From positions 1 through 18,630 of the forward strand of contig CAKVCG010000018.1 of the NCBI GenBank assembly GCA_934725525.1: a DNA stretch of 18,630 bases, in the 5' to 3' direction. This document shows, in pieces, positions 5,502 to 8,633 of this stretch. The translations under genes and the position numbers were made by a program. Each line of letters starts with the position of its first letter. Position 1 is the first letter of the stretch. The notes under the pieces were generated by a model. It was not told where the DNA came from and made no database searches. It worked only from the letters and a program-made list of their open reading frames with translations. This stretch comes from an uncultured Brachyspira sp. (lineage in GTDB: Bacteria; Spirochaetota; Brachyspiria; Brachyspirales; Brachyspiraceae).

Positions 5502-6542
5502 ATGAGTTCTGTAAAACTAAAAAATCTTATAAATAAAAACAAATTTTTTGTCATAGCCGAAGCGGGATGCAATCATGAAGGCGATTTTGAAACTGCTTTA
5601 AAAATGGTCGGAGAAGCTGCTAAATCTGGCGCTCATGCTATTAAATTCCAAAGTTTTACGGTGAATAATTTATTTGCGGTAAAAGAATATACAAAAAAAT
5701 TAAAATTACCCAAAAACGCTCTCGATGGAATAAATAATATAATTTTAAAAACAGAATGGTATAAACCTTTAATGGCGGAAGCGAAAAAGAATAAGATTAT
5801 TTTTATAAGCACGCCTTTTTCGATAGAATCGGTTTTGGAGATGGAAGAAAATAATATTGGAATATATAAAATTGCCTCCTGCGATATTGACAATATTCCT
5901 CTATTAAACGCGATTGCTAAAACTAAAAAACCCGTGATAATGTCAACAGGACTCGCATTGAATAAAGATATAAACGAAGCTTTGAAAATATTAAAAAATA
6001 ACGAAGTCGCATTGCTTCATTGTTCGGTTGAATATCCGACTCCTCTAAAAAACGCTCGGTTAAATAGAATATCGGTTATGAATAAATTATTTAAAAAAAA
6101 TATAATAGGCTATTCGGACCATACGATAGGAATAGAAGCTCCGATAATAGCCTTTACTTTGGGAGCGAGAATAATAGAAAAACATTTTACGATAACTCCC
6201 GAAAAAAAATCTGGCGACCATATAATAAGTTTGAATACAAAATCAATGAGCGATTTAATTGCCGCGCTTAACAATGTTTTAATTATGCTTGGCGGAGAAA
6301 AGGCTTTAAGCAGAGAGAAGACTTTAAGCCAGCAGGAAAAAAAAGAGCTCATATTTGCAAAAAGAGGAATATATTTAAATCATAGCATGCTTAAAAACGA
6401 AATCGTAAAAGAAAAAGATTTGATAGCTTTGCGTCCTTGCGTTGGAATACCAGCGAAAAATTATAATAAAATAATCGGTAAAAAATTGAGGGTAGATAAA
6501 AAATCATTTACGGCTTTAAGTTTTGAAGAATTTACAAAATAG
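5502..6542 (+). CDS. neuB: N-acetylneuraminate synthase family protein (NeuB/SpsE type)
   Basis: The 346-residue protein has an N-terminal TIM barrel (about 1-270) and a C-terminal SAF/antifreeze-like domain (about 285-346), the standard NeuB layout. Family motifs seen are A-E-A-G-C-N-H-E-G-D (19-28), K-F-Q-S-F (48-52), S-T-P-F-S (103-107), H-C-S-V-E-Y-P-T-P (173-181), G-Y-S-D-H-T (203-208), and E-K-H-F-T (226-230). His207 and His228 are at the expected metal-ligand positions. Such enzymes condense phosphoenolpyruvate with an N-acetyl sugar to make a nonulosonic acid (neuraminic, legionaminic or pseudaminic type). Sequence alone does not settle which. ATG at 5502 is chosen; an in-frame TTG at 5487 lacks a ribosome-binding site. 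No epimerase, CMP-transferase or glycosyltransferase gene is adjacent, so partners must lie elsewhere. Confidence 0.85.
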   Translation: MSSVKLKNLINKNKFFVIAEAGCNHEGDFETALKMVGEAAKSGAHAIKFQSFTVNNLFAVKEYTKKLKLPKNALDGINNIILKTEWYKPLMAEAKKNKIIFISTPFSIESVLEMEENNIGIYKIASCDIDNIPLLNAIAKTKKPVIMSTGLALNKDINEALKILKNNEVALLHCSVEYPTPLKNARLNRISVMNKLFKKNIIGYSDHTIGIEAPIIAFTLGARIIEKHFTITPEKKSGDHIISLNTKSMSDLIAALNNVLIMLGGEKALSREKTLSQQEKKELIFAKRGIYLNHSMLKNEIVKEKDLIALRPCVGIPAKNYNKIIGKKLRVDKKSFTALSFEEFTK

Positions 6543-6751: not shown

Positions 6752-6787
6752 TAAAAAAGACATCGCAATAAATACGATGCCTTTTTA
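6752..6787 (-). terminator. Terminator of the phase-variable lipoprotein gene
   Basis: The stem A5-G-x-CATCG (6754-6765) pairs with CGATG-x-C-T5 (6775-6786) around a 9-base loop. The internal position 6760/6780 is A.C on the plus strand but G.U on the minus strand, so the minus-strand RNA forms an unbroken stem followed by a U-run. It sits 26 bases past the minus-strand stop codon at 6813. It may also help stop plus-strand transcripts from neuB. Confidence 0.75.
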
Positions 6788-6812: not shown

Positions 6813-7859
6813 TCAAAAATCCCATTTAGCATTACTGGGTAAAGTTAATTTAATAGTTAATCCCGTAGTCGTTAAATGCGCAACCTCTCTTGACAAGACA
6901 TTACCGCTTTTCAATGTTTTAAATTTCAAAGTGAAAGTGCAACCTTTACCGCTAACTGACGGCGTAGCAGAAGATTCTACTCCCAGAAAAGTTAAAAAAT
7001 ATTTTCCAAATTCTGAATTATCATTTATCGCGTTTACTAATGTTTCCGCCGCTTTACTTTTAGAAATACTTACGCTTGAGGAACTTGTTGTAGTCGTTCC
7101 AGTTGAAGAAAAATTAAGGCTTGAAGAAGAAAAACTTTTATCTGCAAAACTAAATTTAACCGTATTATCAAATGATGAAGTATCTGCAATGATTATTTCG
7201 CCAGCGCTTGGCGTGTCGCTTATTAACGCCGAGCTTTTTTGTTTTACGGTTTTCATTATAGTTTCTATTTCCGTTTTAGTTACAACTTTAGCTTTGATTA
7301 AATTAATATTAACATCTACATTTTTCGATTCTGAAGAAGTCGCTATTTTAAATGTTATTCTATATGCATATTTTTGCGTTTCGATAAATTTATCTTTTGC
7401 CGCTTGGAATTTACTTAAACCCGAACTTGATAATCTCAAATCTTTACTTGATTGATTATAGCTAAAATCGGATGTTCCTAAAGCCAATGGCAAGCTAGCG
7501 CTCATCTGTGCTACGCTTTCGATTGAAATGGTATAATCCGAAGCTCCAGTCACTGTGAAGCCTACAGTTCCTGCAGAATAAACTTTTGAGGAAGAAGTTT
7601 CACTAATAAGCGTTATGTCTTTAGAGTTGTTCAAAGCTTCGCTTACGGCAAAATAATTAAAGTTATTTCCTGTATTGCCGTTATTTCCCGTGTCGCCTCC
7701 AGTCGTTCCTTCATTACTACAACTAATTGAAAATAGTAAAGTTAGTAATGATAATAATGAGATAAGAAATGTTTTGAAGTGGCTATTAATTAAAGTATAA
7801 TTATAGCCGTTGAGTTGAGTTGAGTTGAGTTGAGTTGAGTTGAGTTGAGTTGAGTTCAT
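6813..7859 (-). CDS. Putative phase-variable surface lipoprotein with pentanucleotide repeat start
   Basis: This 348-residue protein matches no family I recognise. Translation starts at ATG 7859, with GGAGGA 8 bases upstream. The coding sequence then runs straight into about 9.6 copies of AACTC, read as NSTQL three times plus N. After residue 20 come a signal-type hydrophobic core (about 31-46) and a spirochaete-like lipobox S-I-S-C with Cys47. A flexible Gly/Asn/Thr linker follows. The body is rich in Ser, Thr and Lys, with stretches such as T-T-T-T-S-S-S-S (about residues 247-254), as in exposed proteins. The 46-residue leader, with only one Lys before the core, is unusually long. The repeat unit is not a multiple of three, so slippage would switch expression off. 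Two promoters upstream and a terminator downstream make it a single-gene unit. Confidence 0.8.
   Translation of the reverse strand: MNSTQLNSTQLNSTQLNGYNYTLINSHFKTFLISLLSLLTLLFSISCSNEGTTGGDTGNNGNTGNNFNYFAVSEALNNSKDITLISETSSSKVYSAGTVGFTVTGASDYTISIESVAQMSASLPLALGTSDFSYNQSSKDLRLSSSGLSKFQAAKDKFIETQKYAYRITFKIATSSESKNVDVNINLIKAKVVTKTEIETIMKTVKQKSSALISDTPSAGEIIIADTSSFDNTVKFSFADKSFSSSSLNFSSTGTTTTSSSSVSISKSKAAETLVNAINDNSEFGKYFLTFLGVESSATPSVSGKGCTFTLKFKTLKSGNVLSREVAHLTTTGLTIKLTLPSNAKWDF
7809..7856 (-). repeat. Pentanucleotide tandem repeat (AACTC)n inside the lipoprotein start
   Basis: Forty-eight bases consist of uninterrupted 5-base units (GTTGA on the plus strand, AACTC on the coding strand), 9.6 copies with no mismatch. 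The tract begins immediately after the ATG. In the present length the frame is open. In either shifted frame a TAA stop is met within about eight codons after the tract. Perfect short tandem repeats of this kind are typical slipped-strand contingency loci. Confidence 0.95.
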
Positions 7860-7889
7860 GATGTATATCCTCCGTTAAATTAGTTTATT

Positions 7890-7994: not shown

Positions 7995-8023
7995 ATTCTA
8001 CAATATTTAAAAATTTTTGTCAA
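7995..8023 (-). promoter_or_regulatory. Main candidate promoter for the lipoprotein gene
   Basis: On the minus strand TTGACA (8023-8018) and TAGAAT (8000-7995) are separated by exactly 17 bases. The predicted leader is about 130 bases and would include the second promoter-like site and the leader hairpin. Confidence 0.6.
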
Positions 8024-8096: not shown

Positions 8097-8124
8097 TTGA
8101 CAAATATAATCATTTTAGTATAAT
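8097..8124 (+). promoter_or_regulatory. Promoter of the ispF-squalene synthase unit
   Basis: Perfect TTGACA (8097-8102) and TATAAT (8119-8124) boxes are spaced by 16 bases. Transcription should start near 8131, about 26 bases before the ispF ATG. The leader contains a GAGAGG ribosome-binding site. Confidence 0.75.
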
Positions 8125-8156: not shown

Positions 8157-8633
8157 ATGAGAATAGGACATGGTTATGATTCTCATATATTTGAAAAAAA
8201 CAGAAAATTAATTTTGGCGGGAATAGAAATTAAAAGCGAAGTCGGATTAAAAGGACATTCTGACGCCGACGCGGTAATTCATGCATTGATAGATTCGATA
8301 TTCGGCGCTTTATCTTTGGGCGATATAGGAAGCCATTTTCCCGATAACGATAACAAATACAAAAATATTTCCTCTATAGAATTGCTTAAGGAAACTATAA
8401 AAATTATGGAAGAAAAAAATTATACGATTTCAAATGCGGATATTACTATTATACTTGAAAAACCGAAATTAAGAGATTATATCGATTCTATGCGCGAAAG
8501 TTTGGCAAAAATATTGAAAACAGATATAAAAAATATTTCTATAAAAGCGAAGACAAACGAAAAAATGGACGCGGTTGGAAGAGGAGAAGGAATAGCCGTT
8601 CATTGCGTATCGTTATTAAAAAATATTAACTAA
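8157..8633 (+). CDS. ispF: 2-C-methyl-D-erythritol 2,4-cyclodiphosphate synthase
   Basis: The 158-residue enzyme makes the cyclic diphosphate intermediate of the MEP isoprenoid pathway in the cytoplasm, releasing CMP. It has the standard length and motifs. G-H-G-Y-D-S-H gives Asp8 and His10, and G-H-S-D-A-D-A-V-I-H gives His42, the three zinc ligands. T-N-E-K-M-D-A-V-G-R-G-E-G-I-A near residues 132-146 is the conserved CDP-binding and active-site segment. It works as a trimer in known members. It is the first gene of a two-gene unit; the next gene starts 28 bases downstream and encodes a prenyl-coupling enzyme, consistent with an isoprenoid operon. Other MEP genes are not present here. Confidence 0.95.
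   Translation: MRIGHGYDSHIFEKNRKLILAGIEIKSEVGLKGHSDADAVIHALIDSIFGALSLGDIGSHFPDNDNKYKNISSIELLKETIKIMEEKNYTISNADITIILEKPKLRDYIDSMRESLAKILKTDIKNISIKAKTNEKMDAVGRGEGIAVHCVSLLKNIN

Follow-up and report, generated by a model that had tools for sequence, protein, structure and literature searches.

We analyzed an 18,630-nucleotide stretch of DNA from an uncultured Brachyspira sp. (contig CAKVCG010000018.1, hereafter the window), in which a minus-strand gene for a predicted lipoprotein carries a tract of AACTC pentanucleotides directly after its start codon. In our assessment this gene is likely to be a contingency locus with frame-shifting ON/OFF phase variation. Slipped-strand mispairing would alter the number of AACTC units just past the start codon. 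The in-frame class, one length in three, would give rise to a secreted lipoprotein, and this is the state in the window; the other two classes would give, at the lengths examined, a peptide of fewer than 30 residues and no lipoprotein. The gene appears to belong to a Brachyspira lipoprotein family with AACTC, AACAA, and AGCAA leader tracts, and the sequence of a further lipoprotein implies an AAGAG tract. The leader may be a portable module that can be attached to various mature proteins, which would result in random ON/OFF combinations of surface proteins. Such switching would presumably be reversible, and its benefit may lie in the variation of antigens or adhesins in the gut.

The AACTC tract and its reading frames

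Tandem Repeats Finder reported a period of 5, 9.6 copies, and a 100% match at 7809–7856 in the minus-strand gene, and the ATG occupies 7857–7859. This bears out a preliminary description of the window, made from its letters alone, in which 9.6 perfect AACTC copies were seen after the ATG (7809..7859). The tract is directly 3′ of the ATG and its unit reads GAGTT on the other strand. Its length is far beyond chance: perfect runs of period 5 reached 48 bp in the window, compared to a mean of 13.3 and a maximum of 21 bp in 200 order-4 Markov sequences of window length. Of the other periods between 2 and 12, none had a run of more than 21 bp in the window, except period 10, which is the AACTC tract again. 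The 16 residues NSTQLNSTQLNSTQLN could be encoded by 382,205,952 different DNA sequences. Since the DNA has a period of 5, and not only the period of 15 that corresponds to the peptide, the repetition belongs to the DNA rather than to the protein.

We read the frame by script for 0–15 AACTC units. One in three tract lengths was open, which at the present length gives 348 codons, and the two other length classes stopped after 7–29 residues. The shifted frames end in CGG-CTA-TAA and ACG-GCT-ATA-ATT-ATA-CTT-TAA, and the tract is free of stops in all coding-strand frames; the script reproduced both points as they had been written in the preliminary description. Starts that might bypass the tract (ATG, GTG, or TTG) were sought at the frame-lost lengths in the range of 7–11 units, that is 7, 8, 10, and 11. 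None between the tract and the lipobox, or just upstream, restored the signal peptide at these lengths. When the frame is lost, the first starts in the lipoprotein frame are at codons 76 (TTG, 273 amino acids (aa)) and 103 (GTG, 246 aa), and further internal starts are found at codons 119 (ATG, 230 aa), 123, and 125 (both TTG, 226 and 224 aa).

These frames also bear on a different role for the tract, in which it tunes translation or secretion stepwise, through the length of the leader or a start region that is unstructured, with ON/OFF switching being secondary. The tract does adjoin the start codon, and leader lengths vary in steps of five residues. Every single 5-bp step shifts the frame, so that graded tuning would need steps of three units, and we regard stepwise tuning as very improbable.

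Beyond the tract, the translation continues with a short linker and a hydrophobic stretch, followed by a lipobox-like LFSIS-C (residue 47). Read by eye, KTFLISLLSLLTLLFSIS-C47 is a signal peptide with a hydrophobic core, a lipobox, and a Cys; that such a leader is read as having a lipobox is general knowledge. Cys47 is nearly invariant in the family alignment. A Gly/Thr/Asn-rich tether, CSNEGTTGGDTGNNGNTGNN, lies between C47 and the mature protein. The AlphaFold2 (AF2) model has a leader helix at residues 22–45, partly of low confidence, and the mature part is predicted to have an immunoglobulin (Ig)-like N-terminal domain (~66–190) and a mixed alpha/beta C-terminal domain (191–348). A surface location is presumed, from the by-eye signal peptide and knowledge of spirochaete lipoproteins.

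Truncated relatives and the nature of their leaders

A homologue search of 5.8 billion proteins gave 162 matches, clustered at 90% identity, and the best 120 of these 162 were examined. All of the named organisms among the 120 were Brachyspira (B. aalborgi, and once B. catarrhinii), with most entries having no name. Twenty of the 120 had at least 85% identity to the window protein. One of them, P0001 (97% identity), has a tract leader with one NSTQL compared to three in the window, which would imply 3.6 versus 9.6 copies as judged from the protein; its open reading frame (ORF) was called from the M preceding the NSTQL unit. Two others, P0002 and P0003, have a late start, yet one that is before the signal peptide. 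The ORF calls of the other 17 are truncated, with a start within the signal peptide in one case and past the Cys in 16. Thirteen of the 20 begin exactly at window codons 76 (nine), 103 (two), and 125 (two), and lengths of 271–274, 244–247, and 222–223 aa recur among the close relatives. Starts at these three codons would be expected if gene callers landed there on frame-lost copies whose downstream frames are intact. The starts of P0045 and P0048 align to the ATG at codon 119, and that of P0029 corresponds to no start codon in the window.

Complete signal peptides were absent from the calls of 83 of the 120 homologues, which start either inside the signal peptide (38) or after the Cys (45). 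Two more are contig-edge proteins, and the leaders of the others were of AACTC (2), AACAA (8), or AGCAA (6) type, had MNCALN starts (8), or were other complete signal peptides (11). Most of the truncated calls are unlikely to be due to contig ends, as 50 of the 83 (27 + 23) represent clusters with a longest contig of 5 kb or more.

If the truncated calls were due to a general annotation fault, they should also fall near tract-less members of the family. Tract-less signal peptides were found in seven members (P0025, P0031, P0033, P0069, P0078, P0096, and P0107). With leader classes set by our own patterns, and with the flanks used to place 12 late-start proteins among the tract types, the nearest full-length relative of the 83 truncated proteins had a tract-bearing leader in 61 cases, a late-start leader in 21, and a tract-less leader in one; the full-length members themselves number 17, 12, and 7 in these classes. 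Fisher tests gave p values of 0.0009 (82:29 vs 1:7) and 0.0004 (61:17 vs 1:7), which serve only as a guide because the rows are related. P0109 and P0116, which show no standard unit, were counted as tract-bearing. The count was repeated with visible units only. In that count p was 0.0003 when one unit or more was required (60:15 vs 1:7) and 0.003 when two or more were required (24:9), these values being likewise only a guide for related rows. The two contig-edge proteins and P0121–P0124 are outside the control count. Leaders with LFAISC or ALSISC were rejected as a control, as start codons may be missing from within their signal peptides.

Could the truncated database ORFs be mis-annotated starts or decaying pseudogenes in a degrading family, and not OFF phases? 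The relatives were examined as proteins alone, and one truncated protein, P0073, is nearest to a tract-less relative. In addition, the starts of P0029, P0045, and P0048 are ones that either were not predicted or were not used in the closest relatives. Against degradation, the truncated forms P0005–P0007 are 95–97% identical over ORFs of 271–274 aa and their mature frames are open and closely conserved, which is more in keeping with a reversible OFF state than with decay; moreover, P0001, the in-frame homologue, was called from ahead of its NSTQL unit. We think it improbable that degradation accounts for the truncated calls.

Other implied pentanucleotide tracts and shared leaders

Only 784 of 3.2 million pentapeptides can be encoded by a tandem 5-mer. 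In 125 proteins (124 database proteins and the window protein), peptide repeats of period 5 and at least nine residues occurred in 11 proteins and comprised four peptides, all of them 5-mer-codable. The units implied are AACTC for NSTQL, AACAA for NKTKQ, AGCAA for SKAKQ, and AAGAG or a rotation of it for REEKR. The NKTKQ and SKAKQ leader repeats are in the same family as the window protein, with NKTKQ directly after the start Met and SKAKQ from residue 8. The REEKR repeats are in P0123, a different lipoprotein that was found via its signal peptide. The number of units varies among leaders (NKTKQ 1–3, SKAKQ 2–4, NSTQL 1 and 3). Judging from these proteins, pentanucleotide tracts in lipoprotein leaders would seem to be a recurring theme.

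Starts past the tract were also noted. P0003, P0091, and P0120 have AGCAA-like flanks and start past the tract but before the signal peptide (MRSLT...), and the MNCALN... starts of P0064, P0065, P0067, P0068, P0074, P0075, P0099, and P0117, which also have AGCAA-like flanks, are likewise past the tract but before the signal peptide.

The mature parts of P0121, P0123, and P0124 are unrelated, yet these proteins have the tract leader or the signal peptide in common with the family. P0121 (194 aa) begins with MNSTQLNGYNY followed by a signal peptide similar to that of the window family, and the profile alignment covers residues 1–47. Past its Cys36 there was little similarity to the window family and no credible match thereafter. 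The match between P0123 and P0010 is in the signal peptide (E 7e-10) and is not credible elsewhere. In P0122, an NKTKQ leader is present on a distant family member. These few cases suggest that leaders may have been exchanged between lipoprotein genes. We see roughly an even chance that the aalborgi group of Brachyspira has what could be called a “phasome”, in which interchangeable leader modules, each with a 5-base tract of its own and a lipoprotein signal peptide, have spread by copying to surface lipoproteins, both paralogous and unrelated, which would then switch independently and at random.

No relative was obtained from two genome-contig scans, from a scan of viral sequences that used the alignment of the family, from tblastn searches of plasmids and phages, or from a degenerate lipobox pattern in viral contigs. 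The one viral match to ATG(AACTC)3 falls within an ORF of 624 aa on a viral contig and was taken as chance. On the viral contig L004, (AACTC)18 at 1243–1332 is in no open frame of more than 80 codons.

The tract could be an ordinary variable-number repeat with occasional slippage and no adaptive switch, in which case selection would keep the frame and the N-terminal peptide would be a tolerated spacer. It is consistent with this that the four AACTC-leader proteins found here show only 1 or 3 NSTQL units, all in frame, and that AACTC tracts of 5–18 units are also present at six viral-contig loci that have no such lipoprotein start, the tract never being directly after an ATG. Length-variable repeats as such are, moreover, already known in the genus: strain typing of B. 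pilosicoli by variable-number tandem repeats is cited in a passage of PMC8116685. An ordinary repeat does not fit well with a family whose leaders use several distinct 5-bp units, nor with the concentration of frame-lost ORF calls on tract leaders, and we judge this explanation unlikely.

Several points weigh against phase variation. The tracts of the relatives are deduced from protein, clustering at 90% identity makes the counts rough, and the truncated calls may come from start mis-annotation, decay, or contig ends. Many leaders of the relatives show a single unit (P0001, P0004, P0080, P0082, P0092, and P0119), and so short a tract would not slip as readily as one of 9.6 copies. Of the leaders without a standard repeat, that of P0109 is of NKT type with no unit and that of P0116 is of SKAKQ type with a variant. 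Full-length proteins reveal only changes by multiples of three units, because out-of-frame alleles never appear as full-length proteins. Finally, the starts past the tract (MRSLT... and MNCALN...) could bypass or alter the switch in that group of paralogues. Overall, the mechanism put forward in the preliminary description, an ON/OFF surface lipoprotein that is ON in the window, is very probably right. The frame logic, the tract length implied for P0001, the ORF starts of 13 of the 20 close relatives, and the tracts of paralogues all add to it; switching itself and the surface location stay conjectural.

Surrounding features and comparison with known systems

The features of the lipoprotein gene are collected in the table. 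Two of them, the GGAGG motif and the promoter-like site at 8023–7995, were not in the preliminary description.

Table. Positions of the lipoprotein gene and associated features in the window.
Feature	Position	Strand	Basis or remark
Lipoprotein gene, 348 aa	6813..7859	-	ORF translation; stop at 6813-6815
ATG start of the lipoprotein gene	7857..7859	-	ORF and sequence reading
(AACTC)9.6 tract, 48 bp, perfect, encodes NSTQLNSTQLNSTQLN	7809..7856	-	Tandem Repeats Finder and frame script
GGAGG Shine-Dalgarno motif, 9 nt 5′ of the ATG	7869..7873	-	Sequence reading
Promoter-like TTGACA-17-TAGAAT 5′ of the lipoprotein gene	7995..8023	-	Consensus scan, 11/12 matches; consensus only, not evidence of function
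Leader remainder: short linker and hydrophobic signal-peptide core to the lipobox (LFSIS)	7722..7808	-	Translation
Cys47 codon, predicted lipidation site	7719..7721	-	Translation
Terminator-like hairpin 3′ of the lipoprotein gene	6754..6786	-	Consensus scan
Internal TTG, codon 76	7632..7634	-	ORF start in 9/20 close relatives (MNNSKDITL...)
Internal GTG, codon 103	7551..7553	-	ORF start in 2/20 close relatives (MTGASDY...)
Internal TTG, codon 125	7485..7487	-	ORF start in 2/20 close relatives (MTLGASD...)

The neighbors of the lipoprotein gene are unrelated to it, and include a NeuB-type gene at 5502–6542 and a divergent gene at 8157 whose product we take, from its sequence, to be IspF-like. 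Ahead of the latter, the consensus scan found a perfect promoter-like TTGACA-16-TATAAT at 8097–8124 (+). At 321–1103 (−) there is a second predicted lipoprotein (MIKRIVIIIAVCMLALACNKNT...), which is tract-less and had no Pfam match above the cut-off. A RecX-like protein is encoded at 1153–1758 (−), with both of its Pfam matches under the curated cut-off.

In people and animals, intestinal spirochaetes attach to the lining of the colon, and to our knowledge the ways in which they vary their surface are poorly known. A family of repeat-switched lipoproteins could explain antigen differences from strain to strain, and would caution against relying on such a protein as the sole vaccine or diagnostic target. 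The different 5-bp units implied in the leaders of one family, and the presence of its leader on an unrelated protein, also bear on how contingency loci spread.

The main text of the B. aalborgi genome paper (PMC6779451) contains none of the strings “phase varia”, “lipoprotein”, or “surface protein”. Among the matches listed from the open-licence literature, none dealt with phase variation driven by repeats in Brachyspira, and Brachyspira together with slipped-strand mispairing gave no match in that literature. The mechanism itself is known; the new part is the wider picture of a lipoprotein family in which several pentanucleotide units are implied and a leader is shared.

Opa proteins of Neisseria are beta-barrel outer-membrane proteins, unlike the product of the gene described here, which is a predicted lipoprotein with a leader helix in the AF2 model, an Ig-like domain, and a mixed alpha/beta C-terminal domain. 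The genes themselves are the closer parallel, as the opa genes have CTCTT pentamers in the sequence coding for the leader peptide and their mechanism of phase variation is well known (PMC3745409). Both systems have a pentanucleotide tract in a leader coding region, frame-shift ON/OFF control (proposed in our case), a multi-gene family of outer proteins, and a host-associated bacterium. They differ in that the unit is AACTC and not CTCTT, the phylum is another one, several units are implied in one family, and the leader is shared with unrelated proteins.

Within the same phylum, Treponema pallidum is named, in the relevant part of a review (PMC11868660), among species with repeat-mediated phase-variable repertoires. 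It resembles the present case in repeat-driven phase variation, differs in its order and genes, and is likened by description only. Two further cases come from the same genus. The Vsp proteins of Brachyspira hyodysenteriae are a surface protein family whose phase variation is discussed, with no mention of a repeat tract in the portion of PMC5415613 that concerns them; this likeness, too, is by description only. BPP43_05035 of Brachyspira pilosicoli is, like the protein in the window, a lipoprotein; it is described in an excerpt of PMC11444514 as a cell-surface adhesin that is unique to B. pilosicoli, and its 463-aa six-bladed beta-propeller differs from the fold predicted here.
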